A DNA stretch of 64,000 nt from Cellulophaga sp. Hel_I_12 (GTDB lineage: Bacteria; Bacteroidota; Bacteroidia; Flavobacteriales; Flavobacteriaceae), in NCBI RefSeq assembly GCF_000799565.1, contig NZ_JUHB01000001.1, forward strand, positions 3,785,501-3,849,500, in the 5' to 3' direction. A model generated the notes under the pieces. It saw nothing but the letters and a program-made list of their open reading frames with translations, was not told where the DNA came from and searched no databases. Shown one piece after another: positions 28,902 through 36,184 of this stretch. The position numbers and the translations under genes are program-made. Every line of letters begins with the position of its first letter. The first letter of the stretch is position 1.

Positions 28902-29117
28902 TTATTCATCTTCGCGCGCTACCTCGTTCTCACTCTTTAAAACAAAATCACCATCCTCTTGTTCAATAAACAAAGCTTTATTGCCTACCTCTCCATGTCG
29001 TGTAACTTCGGAACCTTTTATGGTCTTGGTAATAGACTCGGTATAGGTCTCTTTAACTGTTCCTCTTCCAAATCCGTTTCCCCATTTCCATTGTACTCTG
29101 CTGCCTTTCTGTATCAT
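28902..29117 (-). CDS. DUF2945 (HVA1-like Tudor) family protein
   Basis: This is a 71-residue soluble protein matching the small DUF2945/HVA1 family. It starts MIQKGSRVQWKWGNGFGRGTV, has the central KGSEVTRHGEVGNKAL motif, and ends in an acidic LKSENEVAREDE tail. The fold is a compact Tudor-like beta barrel, and the biochemical role is not established. It is separate from the tandem peptide genes downstream on the other strand. Confidence 0.88.
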   Translation of the reverse strand: MIQKGSRVQWKWGNGFGRGTVKETYTESITKTIKGSEVTRHGEVGNKALFIEQEDGDFVLKSENEVAREDE

Positions 29118-29348
29118 AGCTACTTAATTTTATACAAAGATCCTTCATTGCTTGCCTTTTTGGGGTCGCAATCCAGATAAAATATTGATCCATATGCACC
29201 ATGGTAAATATTAAAAACAAACGGGTAGCATGAAAGACAACTTTAATTTAATACTGCTTTAGAGCAAGATGCTAAAGTTCAATTAGCTTCACTTTTTGTT
29301 TTTAAGTCAACTTAGGCAACAGTAATCTAGAAGCTTAAAAAATATTTT

Positions 29349-29527
29349 ACCGATAAAAAGCACAATAGTTCGGTCAATGAATTTTCAATGCATTTTCGGT
29401 AAACGGTGAAAATGTTGCTGATATCTAGATAAATTTCATTCACCGATAGATAAGCGGGACTGACCGATTTATGGCGAAATAGGCTTCATCGCGGGGGTAT
29501 CTTTACAGTGTAATTAAACCACAAGTC
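29349..29527 (+). repeat. Conserved upstream regulatory region, copy 1
   Basis: This is the first of three ~180-bp regions that precede the three 80-aa peptide genes. It contains an ACCGAT at 29350-29355, a CATTTTC/GAAAATG inverted repeat (29391-29414), TATCTAGATA (29422-29431), and two ACCGAT hexamers at 29442 and 29463, exactly 21 bp apart. A -7-like TATCTTTA (29498-29505) lies 29 bp further on. No -33 TTG is visible, so an activator-dependent promoter is inferred. Confidence 0.75.
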
Positions 29528-29770
29528 ATGAAAACTATCTTAACTATCTTATTTATTCTTTTTACAGGTCTTTTCGCTCAAGCTCAAGAAAACACTGTGA
29601 ATGTTAAAGTAGAAGTGACTATAGAAACTGTTGTTTTGGTTACACCAACAATCGAGTCAGTTTTAAATGCTAACGAAACTAAAGTAGCTCGTTTGTATAT
29701 GGATAAGAATTACAAAGTAAAAAAAGAGTTGTCTTTCGCAACTAAAGCTAACAAATCTAAATTAGCCTAA
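29528..29770 (+). CDS. Small secreted peptide, tandem copy 1
   Basis: This 80-residue protein has a signal peptide (MKTILTILFILFTGLFAQAQ) and a mature part of ~60 residues. The mature part has a valine-rich amphipathic strand region (VNVKVEVTIETVVLVTP) and a basic C-terminal half (KVARLYMDKNYKVKKELSFA). It is identical in sequence to copy 3 and differs from copy 2 at one residue (Asn versus Lys in VLNA-ETKV). I recognise no family. The conserved promoter region and coding sequence show it is expressed under selection or was recently homogenised. Export to the periplasm or beyond is inferred. Confidence 0.82.
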   Translation: MKTILTILFILFTGLFAQAQENTVNVKVEVTIETVVLVTPTIESVLNANETKVARLYMDKNYKVKKELSFATKANKSKLA

Positions 29771-29956
29771 TTCATCTCCCTTTTATTTTAAACGACATAG
29801 CCTTACCGCATTTTCTAAAATTACCGTTCTCCCTTAAATTTTATAAACACGAATTGACTACCCGTAGCGCTAAGAATTTTTGTGTTTCTAACAGACTCCT
29901 TTTTAGGAATACATAAATAGAAGTAGCAGAAGCTATTGGTTATAGTTTGCTCATGT
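29771..29956. other. Spacer unique to tandem copy 1
   Basis: After the shared tail TTCATCTCCC the sequence TTTTATTTT occurs at 29781-29789 and again at 29957-29965. The 167 bp between them are absent from the equivalent junction behind copy 2 (30641), so they are an insertion in copy 1 or a deletion in the later unit. No gene or structure is visible inside. Confidence 0.6.
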
Positions 29957-30640
29957 TTTTATTTTCACACTTTCTGAAATAAAAATACCACTCGAAGTAG
30001 TAGTTTATAAAAAGCTATTTAAAAGAATATCACAGTAGCTACAAATTGGGTCATTTAAAGATCCTTGAAATTACTCATCAGGCATTTTACCCTGCACTAA
30101 GTTCACAGACCGTAAGATTTTTAGGAGCCACTACTTAATTTATTCCATCACTTTCAACTCCAAAGCAGCGTTTTGGACAGCTTTCGATACGGATGTCAAA
30201 TTAGAAATTCCGATAAAAAGCACAATAGTTCGGTCAATGAATTTTCAATACATTTTCGGTAAACGGCGAAAATGTTGCTGATATCTAGATAATTTTCATT
30301 CACCGATAGATAAGCGGGACTGACCGATGTATGGCGAAATAGGCTTCATCGCGGGGGTATCTTTACAGTGTAATTAAACCACAAGTCATGAAAACTATCT
30401 TAACTATCTTATTTATTCTTTTTACAGGTCTTTTCGCTCAAGCTCAAGAAAACACTGTTAATGTTAAAGTAGAAGTGACTATAGAAACTGTTGTTTTGGT
30501 TACACCAACAATCGAGTCGGTTTTAAATGCTAAAGAAACTAAAGTAGCTCGTTTGTATATGGATAAAAATTACAAAGTAAAAAAAGAGTTGTCTTTCGCA
30601 ACTAAAGCCAACAAATCTAAATTAGCCTAATTCATCTCCC
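29957..30640 (+). repeat. Tandem duplication unit containing peptide copy 2
   Basis: This unit of about 685 bp has its non-coding half (29957-30208), its regulatory region (30209-30387) and its gene (30388-30630) repeated directly as the next unit (30641-31316). The two units show scattered base changes and small indels in the non-coding part but almost none in the coding part. A conserved block, CCACTACTTAATTTATTCCA and what follows, lies about 70 bp before the regulatory region in both. Confidence 0.75.
30388..30630 (+). CDS. Small secreted peptide, tandem copy 2
   Basis: This 80-residue signal-peptide protein is the same as copies 1 and 3 except for one substitution (VLNAKETKV instead of VLNANETKV). 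The upstream region repeats the paired ACCGAT boxes at 30302 and 30323 (21 bp apart) and TATCTTTA at 30358-30365. The near-identity of the coding sequences, contrasted with more divergent flanks, points to recent duplication, gene conversion or purifying selection. Confidence 0.82.
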   Translation: MKTILTILFILFTGLFAQAQENTVNVKVEVTIETVVLVTPTIESVLNAKETKVARLYMDKNYKVKKELSFATKANKSKLA

Positions 30641-31316
30641 TTTTATTTTCACACTTCCTGAAATAAAAATTCCACTCGAAGTAGTAGTTTATAAAAATCC
30701 ATTCAAATAAACATCAGAGTAGCTGCCAATTTGGTTATTTATGGATATCTCTTACATCAAATACAAGGCATTTTATCTTTCACTAAGTTCACAAACCATA
30801 AGATTTTTAGTAGCCACTACTTAATTTATTCCATCACTTTCAACTCAAAAGCAGCGTTTTGGACAGCTTTCAATACGGATGTCAAATTAGAAATTCCGAT
30901 AAAAAACACATTAGTTCGGCCAATGAATTTTCAATGCATTTTCGGTAAACGGTAAAAATGTTGTTTACATCTAGATAATTTTCATTCACCGATAGATAAA
31001 CGGGACTGACCGATTTTTCGCGAAATAGGCTTCATCACGGGGGTATCTTTACAGTGTAATTAAACCACAAGTCATGAAAACTATCTTAACTATCTTATTT
31101 ATTCTTTTTACAGGTCTTTTCGCTCAAGCTCAAGAAAACACTGTTAATGTTAAAGTAGAAGTGACTATAGAAACTGTTGTTTTGGTTACACCAACAATCG
31201 AGTCGGTTTTAAATGCTAACGAAACTAAAGTAGCTCGTTTGTACATGGATAAGAATTACAAAGTAAAAAAAGAGTTGTCTTTCGCAACTAAAGCAAACAA
31301 ATCTAAATTAGCGTAA
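30641..31316 (+). repeat. Tandem duplication unit containing peptide copy 3
   Basis: This is a direct repeat of the preceding ~685-bp unit. It begins with TTTTATTTTCACAC, and its regulatory region has ACCGAT at 30988 and 31009 (21 bp apart) and TATCTTTA at 31044-31051. After the stop codon the similarity to copies 1 and 2 ends within a few bases, where a 36-aa frame begins. Confidence 0.75.
31074..31316 (+). CDS. Small secreted peptide, tandem copy 3
   Basis: This 80-residue protein is identical to copy 1: signal peptide, valine-rich strand, basic tail. Unlike the other two copies it is followed directly (TAA-TT-ATG) by a short membrane-peptide frame. It is the copy nearest to the convergent sensor kinase gene. 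It may be the ancestral copy, with its original downstream gene. Function is unknown. Confidence 0.82.
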   Translation: MKTILTILFILFTGLFAQAQENTVNVKVEVTIETVVLVTPTIESVLNANETKVARLYMDKNYKVKKELSFATKANKSKLA

Positions 31317-31318
31317 TT

Positions 31319-31429
31319 ATGATAGGTATTTTAATTTTCGTAGGCATTTCAACCATTATTTCATTATTTTATTTTAAGAATAAAACAACGTTTACCAAAC
31401 TTATAAAGGTAAAAGCAGATAGGAAGTAG
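31319..31429 (+). CDS. Possible 36-aa membrane peptide behind peptide copy 3
   Basis: The frame starts 2 bp after the stop codon of copy 3 and encodes MIGILIFVGISTIISLFYFK plus a basic tail ending KVKADRK. It has one membrane helix with the tail probably inside. The spacing suggests translational coupling to the secreted peptide. It ends 2 bp before the stop codon of the convergent sensor kinase gene. It is short, so its reality is inferred from position, composition and topology. Confidence 0.5.
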   Translation: MIGILIFVGISTIISLFYFKNKTTFTKLIKVKADRK

Positions 31430-31431
31430 AT

Positions 31432-32640
31432 TTATTGAGCTCCGATAGCTTGAAAGTGTTGGCCTATCTCTTTGAACTTTATGATATAATTGGTGCCTTT
31501 TTTATTATCATCTTTTAAAATAGAGCCTTTGAGCTGCCTTGTAAGGTTGTAAATAAGCTTTAAGCCTAAAGATTTTGTGGTTTGCGGATTGATGTTTTCT
31601 GCGTAACCCTCTCCGTCATCTCCAATATTTAGGACATAGTCGTCTTCATTTTCTTTTTTTAGGGTAATATTAATTTCTCCTTCACCATTATCTTTAATAC
31701 CGTATTTTAAAGAATTAGTGATAGCTTCATTAATTAATAAGCCTAAGGGAATGGCAGTGTCGATTCCTAAATTAATATCGATGATATCGATGGCTACTTT
31801 AATTTTATTATCTGTACCTTTTATAGACCGCACTAAATAATCACTGAGTTCTTCGACATAAGATTTATATTCTATTTTCGATAAATCTTCTCGCATATAT
31901 AACATTTCGTGTACCATAGCCATAGAGTTTACTCTGTTTTGGCTACTTTTTATCATGCTTTTCATTTCAGGATCATTCATGCTACGGGCCTGTAAACTCA
32001 ATAAACTTGAAACCGTTTGTAAGTTGTTTTTAACTCTATGGTGTACTTCTTTAAGTAGTGTTTCTTTTTCCTTAACCTGTTGTTCTACTTCCATCTTAGA
32101 TCTGTAGAGGTCATAATGCGTTTTAACCAACACTTTTCCAAAAACACCTCCTAATAAGTAAACAGAAAACATGATACTCATAAAGCTAAATAAATTTCTT
32201 GAGGATTCGGGAACAACGTTCACTAGAAACTTGAGTTCAGCAATACTTTCAATATAAATTAAACTTACAATTAGAAAAACCAGATACAAATAAAATTTAC
32301 CGTATTTTTTAGTGGTAACATAGCCTCCAAAGACAATAAGTGCTAAAACAAATATAAAGGCACTATTGATGCCACCGCTGTACATAGTAATGAGCACGGC
32401 ACTAATTAATGCTAGAAAAGAACTTATGTTATAGGTTACTGTTAGATTTTTGTGAAATTTAAAAGCACTAATGTTTAGTAGGTTCAGAAGCGAAAATCCA
32501 ATAAAAATATAGGGGATGATACGGTACACTTCTAGGAGATAAATACACGATAAACCAAATAAAAATGAAAGTCCTGAGGAAAAGTAACTTACCTTTAAGG
32601 TTAACTTGGTTTTTGTTTTAAGGCGCTGTTGGTATGCCAT
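31432..32640 (-). CDS. Membrane sensor histidine kinase (HisKA_2 type)
   Basis: This is a 402-residue kinase. Residues ~18-172 form about six membrane helices with almost no external loops, so it probably senses something in the membrane. A short coiled linker (~180-195) leads to the DHp helix with EVHHRVKNNLQTVSSLLSLQ (phospho-acceptor His201) and an HATPase_c domain with NEAITNSLKYG and GDDGEGY. This is the HWE/HisKA_2-like kinase group. No response regulator gene is adjacent, so it is an orphan. It converges on the tandem peptide genes, to which a regulatory link is possible but unproven. Confidence 0.9.
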   Translation of the reverse strand: MAYQQRLKTKTKLTLKVSYFSSGLSFLFGLSCIYLLEVYRIIPYIFIGFSLLNLLNISAFKFHKNLTVTYNISSFLALISAVLITMYSGGINSAFIFVLALIVFGGYVTTKKYGKFYLYLVFLIVSLIYIESIAELKFLVNVVPESSRNLFSFMSIMFSVYLLGGVFGKVLVKTHYDLYRSKMEVEQQVKEKETLLKEVHHRVKNNLQTVSSLLSLQARSMNDPEMKSMIKSSQNRVNSMAMVHEMLYMREDLSKIEYKSYVEELSDYLVRSIKGTDNKIKVAIDIIDINLGIDTAIPLGLLINEAITNSLKYGIKDNGEGEINITLKKENEDDYVLNIGDDGEGYAENINPQTTKSLGLKLIYNLTRQLKGSILKDDNKKGTNYIIKFKEIGQHFQAIGAQ

Positions 32641-32821: not shown

Positions 32822-35800
32822 TTAATGTTCCGTAATAACCCATTCTCCCTTAGAAACTAATGGCTCTGCTTGTTTGTATTTTAAGGTTTTGCTTTCACCA
32901 GAGAGTACATTTTTGATGGTTACTCTGTCATTACGTCCAATTTTTGGAGCTTCTCGCGTTATGGTTTCAGTAACTTGCGGTCTATTCCCTTGGTTTTGGC
33001 CTACAGAACGGTTCTGAGCAGCTAACTCATCACTATTTAAAACCTCTTCTTTATTTAAGTTCAATTTTTCTTTTGGACGGTTCACATTTCTTGCCTCCTG
33101 AATATTGGTATTGTTTCCGTTCGGAATGTCTCCTTTGTATAGGAACGATACCACCTCTTTATTCACTTTTTCAATCATTTTTTGAAAAAGTTCAAAGGCT
33201 TCGAACTTATAAATTAAAAGAGGATCTTTTTGTTCGTGAACCGCTAATTGTACCGACTGCTTTAATTCATCCATTTTTCTTAAATGAACCTTCCAAGCAT
33301 CATCAACGATAGCTAATGTAATATTTTTTTCAAAATCATTAATTAACTGTTTTCCGTCACTTTCATAAGCTTCCTTTAAATCTGTAACAATGTTAAAGGT
33401 TTTAATCCCATCAGAAAAAGGAACTACAATACGTTCAAATTTATTAGCTTCTTCTTCATATACATTTTTAATAACCCGGTAGGCACTAGTAGCGCTCCTA
33501 TCCATTTTTTCCAAGTAGTGCTCATAGGCCTTTTTATAAAGTAAGGTAGCTATCTCTTGGATGGTTTTTTTTGTAAATTCTTCTTCTGAGATAGGGGCAG
33601 TAATTGCAAAATACTTTATAAGCTCAAACTCAAAATTTTTATAATCGCTTGCGTTTTTATTGGTTTCGGCGATAACTTCGCAAGTATCATAAATCATATT
33701 GGCGATATCTACTTTTAAACGTTCTCCATGCAGTGCGTGTCGTCTTCTTTTGTATATCACCTCACGTTGAGCATTCATCACATCATCATACTCCAATAAA
33801 CGCTTACGAACACCAAAGTTATTTTCTTCTACTTTTTTCTGAGCGCGTTCAATAGATTTGGTCATCATCGAATGTTGAATAACCTCACCCTCTTCTAAGC
33901 CCATTTTATCCATCATTTTAGCGACCCTATCTGAGCCAAATAAACGCATCAAGTTATCTTCTAAAGAAACATAAAATTGGGAGCTTCCGGTATCTCCTTG
34001 ACGTCCGGATCTACCTCTTAACTGGCGGTCAACTCTTCGAGAATCATGACGCTCTGTTCCAACAATGGCTAAACCACCGGCTTTCTTTACTTGTTCAGAT
34101 AGTTTAATATCGGTACCTCTACCAGCCATGTTTGTAGCAATAGTAACAATTCCTGATTTACCAGCTTCTTCTACAATATCAGCTTCTTTCTTGTGTAATT
34201 TTGCGTTCAGTACATTATGTGGTACTTTACGAAGCGTTAACATGCGCGATAAAAGTTCTGAAATTTCTACAGATGTGGTTCCAATAAGTACTGGTCTGCC
34301 TGCATTAGAAAGTTTGGTGACCTCCTCTATAATCGCGTTGTATTTTTCTCTTTTTGTTTTGTAAATTAAGTCGTTACGATCTTCGCGTGCAATAGGTCTG
34401 TTCGTAGGAATCTCCATAACATCTAGTTTGTAGATTTCCCAAAATTCTCCTGCTTCTGTAATTGCCGTACCAGTCATACCAGCTAACTTGCTGTACATTC
34501 TGAAGTAATTTTGTAAAGTTACAGTTGCAAAAGTTTGAGTAACGGCTTCAATTTTTACATTTTCTTTCGCCTCAATAGCTTGATGCAATCCGTCAGAATA
34601 ACGGCGACCATCCATGATACGACCTGTTTGCTCGTCGACAATCATTACTTTATTTTCCATTACTACATACTCCACATCTTTTTCAAATAAGGTATATGCT
34701 TTTAATAATTGATTTAAAGTGTGGATGCGTTCGCTTTTTACCCCAAAGTCTTGAAACAGAACTTCTTTTAATTCTGCTTCCTTTTCAATATCAAGGTTTT
34801 GCTTTTCGATTTTTGCTATTTCACCACCAATATCTGGCATCACAAAAAATTCTTTATCGTCTTCTCCAGAAATATGCTCAACTCCTTTTTCAGTAAGTTC
34901 TATCTGGTTATTTTTTTCATCGATAACAAACCATAATTCCTCATCAACCTTGGGCATTTCACGGTTGTTGTCTTGCATATAAAAATTTTCAGTTTTTTGA
35001 AGCAGTTGTTTAACACCCTCTTCACTCAAAAATTTGATCAATGCTTTGTTTTTTGGTAAGCCTCGATATACACGCAATAATTGAAAACCACCTTCTTTGG
35101 TATCACCAGCGGCAATTAATTTTTTAGCCTCAGCTAAAACACCGGTTAAATATTGCTTCTGCAGCAGTACTAAGTCATTGACCTTTGGTTTTAACTGATC
35201 AAATTCATGAATATCGCCTTTTGGGACTGGACCAGAAATAATTAATGGCGTACGCGCGTCATCCACTAAAACAGAATCTACTTCATCGACAATCGCAAAG
35301 TTGTGGGGGCGTTGCACCAAGTCGCTTGGTGTGTGTGCCATATTATCTCTCAGGTAGTCAAAACCAAATTCATTATTGGTACCATAGGTAATATCTGCAT
35401 TATAAGCACTGCGTCTTCCTTCAGAATTTGGTTGGTGGTTATCGATACACTCAATAGTCATCCCATGAAATTGAAATATAGGAGCCATCCAAGCACTATC
35501 ACGTTTTGCTAAATAATCGTTTACGGTTACTAAGTGTGTTCCGTTTCCTGTTAATGCATTTAAATAGAGTGGAAGGGTTGCTACTAAAGTTTTACCTTCT
35601 CCGGTTTGCATTTCGGCTATTTTACCTTGGTGTAATGCAATACCGCCAATTAATTGTACATCGTAATGTACCATATCCCAAGTGACTTCTTTTCCTGCAG
35701 CGTTCCAAGAATTTTTCCAAATAGCTTTATCCCCATCGAGAGTTACATAATCTTTGGTTCCTGAGAGTTCCCTGTCGTATTCTGTGGCTGTTACAATTAA

Positions 35801-36184
35801 GTTTTCGTTATTTTTAAAGCGCTTTGCAGTTTCTTTAACAACAGCAAATGCCTCAGGAAGAATCGTCTCTAATGTTTTTTCTGATATCTTATAAGACTCT
35901 TCTTTTAGTTTGTCGATTTCCGCATAAATATCTTCATTTTTATCAATATCTTTTGAAGCTTTTACCTCGGCTTGAAGTGCGGCAATTTTATCGTTAATTT
36001 CTTTACAGTCTTGGCTTATTTGCTCTTTAAATGCCAAGGTTTTATTTCTGATTTCATCAAGGCTTAATTGCTCAAGCTCTTTTTCAAAGGAATGAATTTG
36101 ATCGATTATAGGTTGTAGTGCTTTGACATCTTTTTTTGCCTTGTCTCCTACGAAAATTTTTAAAACTGAATTTAAAATACTCAT
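32822..36184 (-). CDS. secA: Protein translocase subunit SecA
   Basis: This 1120-residue motor ATPase drives Sec-dependent export. It has Walker A MQTGEGKT (residues 192-199), the DEAD-like VDEVDSVLVDDARTPLIISGP, the NMAGRGTDIKL and RQLRGRSGRQGD helicase motifs, preprotein-binding and wing/scaffold regions, and a long C-terminal helix. It is longer than E. coli SecA (901 aa) because of lineage-typical insertions, including a helical block at ~60-110 and one at ~325-480. The C terminus (GRNDRVTIKNVLSGESKTLK) lacks the usual zinc-binding cysteines, a known flavobacterial variant. It is monocistronic with a clear terminator. Confidence 0.97.
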   Translation of the reverse strand: MSILNSVLKIFVGDKAKKDVKALQPIIDQIHSFEKELEQLSLDEIRNKTLAFKEQISQDCKEINDKIAALQAEVKASKDIDKNEDIYAEIDKLKEESYKISEKTLETILPEAFAVVKETAKRFKNNENLIVTATEYDRELSGTKDYVTLDGDKAIWKNSWNAAGKEVTWDMVHYDVQLIGGIALHQGKIAEMQTGEGKTLVATLPLYLNALTGNGTHLVTVNDYLAKRDSAWMAPIFQFHGMTIECIDNHQPNSEGRRSAYNADITYGTNNEFGFDYLRDNMAHTPSDLVQRPHNFAIVDEVDSVLVDDARTPLIISGPVPKGDIHEFDQLKPKVNDLVLLQKQYLTGVLAEAKKLIAAGDTKEGGFQLLRVYRGLPKNKALIKFLSEEGVKQLLQKTENFYMQDNNREMPKVDEELWFVIDEKNNQIELTEKGVEHISGEDDKEFFVMPDIGGEIAKIEKQNLDIEKEAELKEVLFQDFGVKSERIHTLNQLLKAYTLFEKDVEYVVMENKVMIVDEQTGRIMDGRRYSDGLHQAIEAKENVKIEAVTQTFATVTLQNYFRMYSKLAGMTGTAITEAGEFWEIYKLDVMEIPTNRPIAREDRNDLIYKTKREKYNAIIEEVTKLSNAGRPVLIGTTSVEISELLSRMLTLRKVPHNVLNAKLHKKEADIVEEAGKSGIVTIATNMAGRGTDIKLSEQVKKAGGLAIVGTERHDSRRVDRQLRGRSGRQGDTGSSQFYVSLEDNLMRLFGSDRVAKMMDKMGLEEGEVIQHSMMTKSIERAQKKVEENNFGVRKRLLEYDDVMNAQREVIYKRRRHALHGERLKVDIANMIYDTCEVIAETNKNASDYKNFEFELIKYFAITAPISEEEFTKKTIQEIATLLYKKAYEHYLEKMDRSATSAYRVIKNVYEEEANKFERIVVPFSDGIKTFNIVTDLKEAYESDGKQLINDFEKNITLAIVDDAWKVHLRKMDELKQSVQLAVHEQKDPLLIYKFEAFELFQKMIEKVNKEVVSFLYKGDIPNGNNTNIQEARNVNRPKEKLNLNKEEVLNSDELAAQNRSVGQNQGNRPQVTETITREAPKIGRNDRVTIKNVLSGESKTLKYKQAEPLVSKGEWVITEH

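Follow-up and report, generated by a model that had tools for sequence, protein, structure and literature searches.

The window analyzed here, a 64,000-nucleotide stretch of the genome of Cellulophaga sp. Hel_I_12, contains an array of three genes encoding peptide precursors of 80 amino acids, each preceded by a conserved upstream region and the array as a whole facing a convergent sensor kinase gene (Table 1). The initial annotation of three 80-residue genes, with the first and third products identical and the second carrying one substitution, is confirmed by the open reading frames (ORFs) and their alignment: copies 1 and 3 differ by five synonymous changes, and relative to each of them copy 2 carries a single amino acid substitution (N49K) plus four synonymous changes. 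Each pair of coding sequences is identical at 238 of 243 nucleotides, with five differences per pair, 13 of the total of 15 being synonymous, while the ~185 bp upstream show 91.4-95.7% identity between copies; the conserved region ahead of each gene and the greater likeness of the coding parts than of the flank both hold as first described. Direct repeats of 300 nt recur at spacings of 860 and 686, and the array also contains a 106-nt spacer repeat (86%). Strong family members are confined to the array in this genome (the next match has an E value of 1.2). An assembly artefact, which had been named as a possible explanation of the three copies, is unlikely because the genome is a single 4.03-Mb contig, the three copies are distinguishable in sequence, and 50 of 76 comparable loci carry two to four copies.

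Table 1. Positions of the array, its flanking genes, and the microprotein genes of other genomes (window numbering unless a locus is given)
Feature	Position	Strand	Basis
Small Hva1_TUDOR domain gene, upstream of the array	28902-29117	-	Pfam PF11160, 1.4e-13
Candidate operator/promoter region, copy 1	29343..29527	+	model R1, 81.9 bits (region included among the 54 sequences used to build R1); box pairs, CCGAT boxes
Peptide precursor gene, copy 1, 80 aa	29528..29770	+	ORF; signal peptide (predicted), variable middle, basic C-terminal core
Candidate operator/promoter region, copy 2	30204..30387	+	model R1, 79.3 bits
Peptide precursor gene, copy 2, 80 aa, N49K	30388..30630	+	ORF and pairwise comparison
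Candidate operator/promoter region, copy 3	30890..31073	+	model R1, 80.5 bits
Peptide precursor gene, copy 3, 80 aa, protein identical to copy 1	31074..31316	+	ORF and pairwise comparison
Polytopic HisKA_2/HATPase sensor kinase, convergent with the array	31432..32640	-	Pfam HisKA_2, 3.2e-28
Presumed secA (name taken from its sequence)	32822..36184	-	ORF; conserved flank (gene cluster 12), outside the proposed mechanism
Microprotein gene	L168:1498-1596
Microprotein gene	L169:1806-1895
Microprotein gene	L170:1028-1117
Microprotein gene	L170:1455-1544
Microprotein gene	L172:1608-1706
Microprotein gene	L175:986-1078

Anatomy and distribution of the peptide family

As read from the aligned sequences, the precursor appears to consist of a signal peptide, a variable and mostly acidic middle, and a conserved basic C terminus of ~28 residues with the consensus ARLYxxKNSRVKKALxFxTKxNKxKLA. 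The last residue is invariant in alignment A2; divergent paralogues and phage forms end otherwise. Charge was calculated for 162 of 166 members, the other four having no start that fitted the rule applied. The core (last 28 residues) has a mean net charge of +8.6 and is positive in all 162 peptides, and the middle has a mean of -2.5 and is negative in 82%; a cysteine occurs beyond residue 20 in six of them. Among 152 sequences chosen for a terminal alanine and clean translation, the mean entropy of the last 28 codons is 0.65, 0.60, and 1.29 at positions 1, 2, and 3, so that third positions are about twice as variable as the other two, which points to selection on the core as a protein, as had been suspected. 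The exported-type character proposed at the outset is supported by the signal-peptide-like N terminus of the family sequences; this N terminus and the conserved C terminus may be those of a small exported precursor, and export would probably use the Sec pathway. Of the valine-rich strand and basic tail described for the mature peptide, the tail is conserved, but the strand falls in the variable middle and is not. The AlphaFold model has a helix for the signal peptide only, with the rest disordered (mean pLDDT 61, low confidence).

A first search returned 75 relatives, those with names coming from Cellulophaga, Arenibacter, and Allomuricauda/Flagellimonas, and a profile search returned 1997 proteins at E<=0.01 (120 of the 1997 listed). 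Strong members (E<=1e-10) are encoded in 44 of 249 Flavobacteriaceae genomes, which we took as the peptide genomes, and G057 (7e-9) was confirmed later. At E<=0.01, 115 of the 249 genomes match; no match in the other 70 is stronger than 3.9e-5, and most of those listed with their positions are confined to the N-terminal part. In a scan of named genomes we recovered 302 stretches encoding the family and retained the top 80, which correspond to 75 loci and come from Cellulophaga, Arenibacter, Maribacter, Zobellia, Eudoraea, Croceitalea, Flagellimonas, and others. Together with the window these make 76 loci with 166 members, and within the fetched stretches 26 loci hold one copy, 24 two, 12 three, and 14 four.

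The suggestion that the peptide belongs to no described family stood up to searching at curated cut-offs: Pfam gave nothing above cut-off for the window peptide and three phage peptides, the best NCBIfam match among 32 members had an E value of 0.00099 (in the member shown, the cut-offs lie far above the scores), and a PDB sequence search returned no family. The one related collection is PHROG phrog_26162, a 59-position phage family of unknown function, which is matched by 20 of 32 members (best E 5.9e-7) and by the window peptide over residues 51-73, that is, in the core. The bacterial members differ from it in their longer middle and their operator region. Our literature search found no paper on the peptide family, and the locus tags of three members were absent from the papers searched. 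The sequences define an unannotated peptide family, with a probable regulon of its own, in Cellulophaga, Maribacter, Arenibacter, Zobellia, and other marine flavobacteria.

The upstream box array and its other possible targets

Alignment of 155 upstream regions, from which 54 were chosen for a promoter model built from sequence only (R1), revealed CG-containing boxes paired at a distance of ~20-21 bp: CGATtAAA/TCGgTAAG, CGTTtATCGA/CACTTTATC, and ACCGAAAAA/CGA. The single promoter architecture initially ascribed to the three genes is seen as a paired-box array upstream of each copy and across the family. In the Hel_I_12 genome, R1 matches the three copies at E values of 9e-23 to 5e-22, the only strong matches; next come two reverse-strand self-matches (0.005 and 0.006) and then nothing below 0.03. 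A scan of 50 genomes under stricter filters (43 peptide genomes, with G086 left out, G057, and six genomes having a candidate regulator and no strong peptide) gave matches at E<=0.001 in all 44 of the former and in none of the six. Many of the 44 are likely to be of the same species as the model sequences, so it is the negatives and the matches away from peptide genes that carry weight.

The regions were scored against what we take to be the LytTR consensus. Tandem pairs fit best at a spacer of 12 among spacers of 6-19 (13.22 of 16; others 12.09-12.78), and 31 of 79 nonredundant regions score at least 14 of 16, versus 12.6 in shuffles; the window copies score 13-14, best at a spacer of 13 and on the other strand. 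This modest fit to an assumed motif lends moderate support to a LytTR-type upstream region. Canonical LytTR sites consist of a pair of 9-bp direct repeats spaced by 10-13 bp (PMC11347149).

We read 20 stretches with R1 matches that were not evidently part of a peptide array. In five genomes (G001, G032, G080, G106 twice, and G222) the match is followed by a gene for a putative membrane microprotein of ~30 amino acids, starting 4-16 bp after it (81 bp in G080). The product has one predicted hydrophobic helix, with the consensus MKxKTTxNDYLVYxFCAFCFLWSLYVLFF in alignment A6, and had no match in NCBIfam for the six proteins or in Pfam for the two scanned. A microprotein profile matched 26 of 45 peptide genomes at E<=1.2e-6 (the five discovery genomes and 21 new ones) and one more at 4.5e-4, compared with none of 16 other genomes at E<=0.01; it detected no microprotein in the Hel_I_12 genome. 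Among 22 held-out microprotein loci, R1 lies directly upstream on the same strand at E<=1e-3 in four (L194, L195, L204, and L206) and more weakly in L205 (0.002) and L208 (0.016; 4e-4 on the other strand), and 16 have no match at E<=1. Conversely, a profile of the 22 microprotein upstream regions matched 115 of the 155 peptide upstream regions at E<=10, 67 at E<=0.01, and 24 at E<=1e-4, these matches being nonindependent since the 155 are mutually related, and it matched none in one shuffled set.

Other R1 stretches precede divergent peptides (L176 and L184) or a TetR gene (L182 in G135, 6.4e-4), and some have no evident target. A combined model, R2, placed a promoter-like stretch before a TetR gene (Pfam TetR_N) of Hel_I_12 itself (L217, G000:C1 2552784-2552891; E 3.8e-4), a site that R1 missed; the encoded protein is 65% identical to the TetR protein of G135. 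The second extra R2 match (0.002, L218) has no evident target. That the box array precedes both the peptide genes and the genes of an unrelated microprotein, with weaker matches before orthologous TetR genes in two genomes, argues that it is the mark of a regulon, as far as comparison of sequences can tell. Another of the 20 stretches, L166 (G102:C9), has a promoter-like match (E 5e-7) lying 53 bp ahead of a gene that is presumably PorP/SprF-like.

Kinase synteny and candidate regulators

No response regulator gene lies between the kinase and the array or between the kinase and the next gene. The kinase model predicts membrane helices, a long helix, and DHp and CA domains (mean pLDDT 76.6). 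Solved relatives found by sequence cover the catalytic part, and the best matches of a fold search are to the catalytic cores of blue-light kinases; the 50 fold matches shown all look kinase-core-like. At E<=1e-65, the kinase is found in 46 of 249 genomes, comprising 43 of the 44 peptide genomes, the weakest being G150 at 2.2e-66, and 3 of the 205 others (G077, 4e-80; G060, 2e-70; G223, 2e-66). The peptide genome with no kinase match, G203, is a draft in which the array lies at a contig end. Kinase and peptide share a contig in 42 of 43 genomes (the exception is G050) and are convergent in all 42, at a median distance of 4.3 kb, with 13 of the 42 within 2 kb, 35 within 5 kb, and 40 within 10 kb. 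The initial annotation had looked for homologs always adjacent to a sensor kinase; the association itself is supported by this synteny, but strict adjacency does not hold. The kinase falls within the fetched stretch in 27 of the 76 named loci. It is polytopic in most genomes; in 6 of 43 its frame has ~300 amino acids, and those of the short frames that were read lack most of the membrane helices. The kinase near the array is present in three neighboring copies in some genomes (G001, G227, and G236; L103 and L108).

Candidate LytTR regulators were sought in the whole Hel_I_12 genome, which has 13 LytTR matches, twelve without a stop and one with an internal stop. BLAST of the 12 proteins against the genes of the 76 loci, up to 10 kb on each side, revealed no linked LytTR regulator, returning only receiver-type proteins of ~139 aa in nine loci. 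The candidate regulator L116 has receiver and LytTR domains, and at E<=1e-120 it is found in exactly the 44 peptide genomes; next come G057 (1.3e-119, 80% identity) and six others at 58-77%, followed by a drop to 46%. A control regulator, L114, is present in 221 of the 249 genomes, and its closest matches (at least 87% identity) are in the same 44. These genomes therefore look like one clade, and the co-occurrence of peptide, kinase, microprotein, and L116 counts as few events and is weak evidence, for which a Fisher test value should not be taken as support. We set aside the assignment of L116 by co-occurrence, given this clade signal and its presence in genomes without strong peptides, and treat it simply as a lead. 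Divergent peptides were predicted for the seven L116 genomes outside the 44, and this held for G057 alone; the best peptide matches in the other six are at 5.7e-4 or weaker, and those in ten L116-free genomes, at 2.6e-5 or weaker, are no worse. In at least five genomes, L116 has another, larger HisKA_2-like kinase as a neighbor within about 2 kb.

Phage homologs and possible functions

Six Maribacter phages (Molly_1 to 5 and Colly_1) share an identical protein of 65 aa that is a full family member. In Colly_1, a matrixin family metalloprotease gene (L132:3286-3885) lies ~1.1 kb downstream of the peptide gene, with two genes between. Cellulophaga phages phi12:1, 12:3, 17:1, 18:1, and 18:2, whose genes were first found through weak matches (E 0.3-0.4), encode a short protein with 95-100% identity to that of phi17:1, and the three genes translated have a 57-aa frame with the core RVYKDKDYKIKRELSF. 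Phages phiST, phi13:1, and phi19:2 match at E 0.8, and phiST contains an unannotated 71-aa ORF. On an IMG/VR contig, a 40-aa ORF encodes the core but lacks a signal peptide. A profile built from bacterial members only scored Molly at 55.7, the IMG/VR ORF at 40.1, phi17:1 at 26.2, and phiST at 25.7 bits, versus 10.4 for the best of 1000 shuffles. The phi17:1 and phiST proteins are probable, rather than certain, mini-versions of the family, because they were picked from a large collection. The promoter was absent at E<=1 from all eight phage loci given. The window peptide itself had no match in the phage collection, and the search of viral contigs did not recover P0075, a 59-aa protein lacking a signal peptide. 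Carriage of core genes by phages suggests that they gain from making the core, which hints at a function on the cell surface or in controlling the host.

We read the locus, with a probability of roughly 0.4, as the principal output of a clade-specific two-component regulon that is probably LytTR-controlled, with an exported cationic peptide that would act in the envelope. A sensor kinase, for which the convergent HisKA_2 protein is the best candidate, would signal to a response regulator, probably of LytTR type, and the regulator would bind the paired boxes ~21 bp apart before each peptide gene and, in relatives, before the microprotein gene. The precursor would be exported by the Sec pathway, and its basic C-terminal core of about 28 residues, perhaps after processing (we identified no processing gene), would be the working part in the cell envelope. 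The peptide might feed back on the kinase, and extra copies, each with its own promoter, would raise the dose. Feedback on kinases by small exported or membrane proteins is exemplified by MgrB, SafA, and CpxP, which the peptide would resemble as a small protein under joint control with a two-component system. The box-pair array, its occurrence before microprotein and TetR genes, the link to a convergent kinase, and the phage members all appear to be new, and they make the locus a concrete candidate for peptide-based regulation in Bacteroidota.

Somewhat unlikely, in our judgment, is that the core is released as an extracellular signal for the polytopic kinase in a quorum-sensing loop like agr or com. 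Like AgrC-AgrA and ComD-ComE, the locus appears to have a small exported peptide, a nearby kinase with several membrane helices, and LytTR-like paired operators upstream of the peptide gene, and its multiple gene copies would also suit a pheromone. Unlike those systems, it belongs to a gram-negative Bacteroidota, with a Sec signal peptide and a HisKA_2 kinase, and its loci yielded neither a LytTR regulator nor a processing or export gene. Sec export alone leaves a peptide in the periplasm, and no dedicated exporter or protease was identified. Pheromones usually diversify, whereas here the core is near-constant across genera and it is the middle that varies; the kinase membrane domain is absent in some genomes, and the fold matches shown for the kinase include no peptide receptor domain. 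The conserved core thus argues against a pheromone, and the promoter-less phage genes for the core argue for one. We regard as unlikely the full composite in which a Sec-exported cationic peptide, sensed by the HisKA_2 kinase, drives its own LytTR-type promoters and the microprotein and is hijacked by promoter-less core copies of unrelated phages.

LytTR regulators often control bacteriocins, and the multiple copies and charge pattern would suit a cationic antimicrobial in which the acidic middle masks the basic, toxic core before processing; we consider this improbable, as the core is conserved in possible targets and is carried by phages.

The arrangement of the loci bears on a further reading, that the peptide gene and its upstream region form a repeat for gene entry and exit at a genomic island. 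Other genes (at least 110 aa) lie between 55 of 89 consecutive peptide pairs. Where the first gene of this size behind a peptide gene is not itself a peptide gene, the two converge in 118 of 127 cases, compared with 692 of 1027 genes on the opposite strand overall in the loci. In loci L034-L108, variable genes, most of them on the opposite strand, stand between the copies, and many of these arrays lie between what we take to be msrA and the kinase/secA end, so that these loci look like a gene-exchange island. A recombination element is nevertheless very improbable as the main role: the core is conserved as protein, phage copies keep the protein without the upstream region, and the promoter is shared with unrelated microprotein genes outside the arrays. 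That the upstream region is instead an RNA element or the leader of an arrest peptide, as its conservation, its near-fixed distance to the ATG, and the likeness of signal peptide plus conserved C terminus to SecM-type peptides, with secA near, might suggest, is scarcely credible, given 0 consensus pairs in 54 upstream sequences, no Rfam match, weak reverse-strand self-matches that fit inverted DNA boxes, and neighboring genes that are mostly convergent and so not cotranscribed, for which the SecM-like reading was set aside. Some Cellulophaga genomes show apparent decay of array copies, the C termini of P0055, P0057, and P0059 looking frame-shifted.
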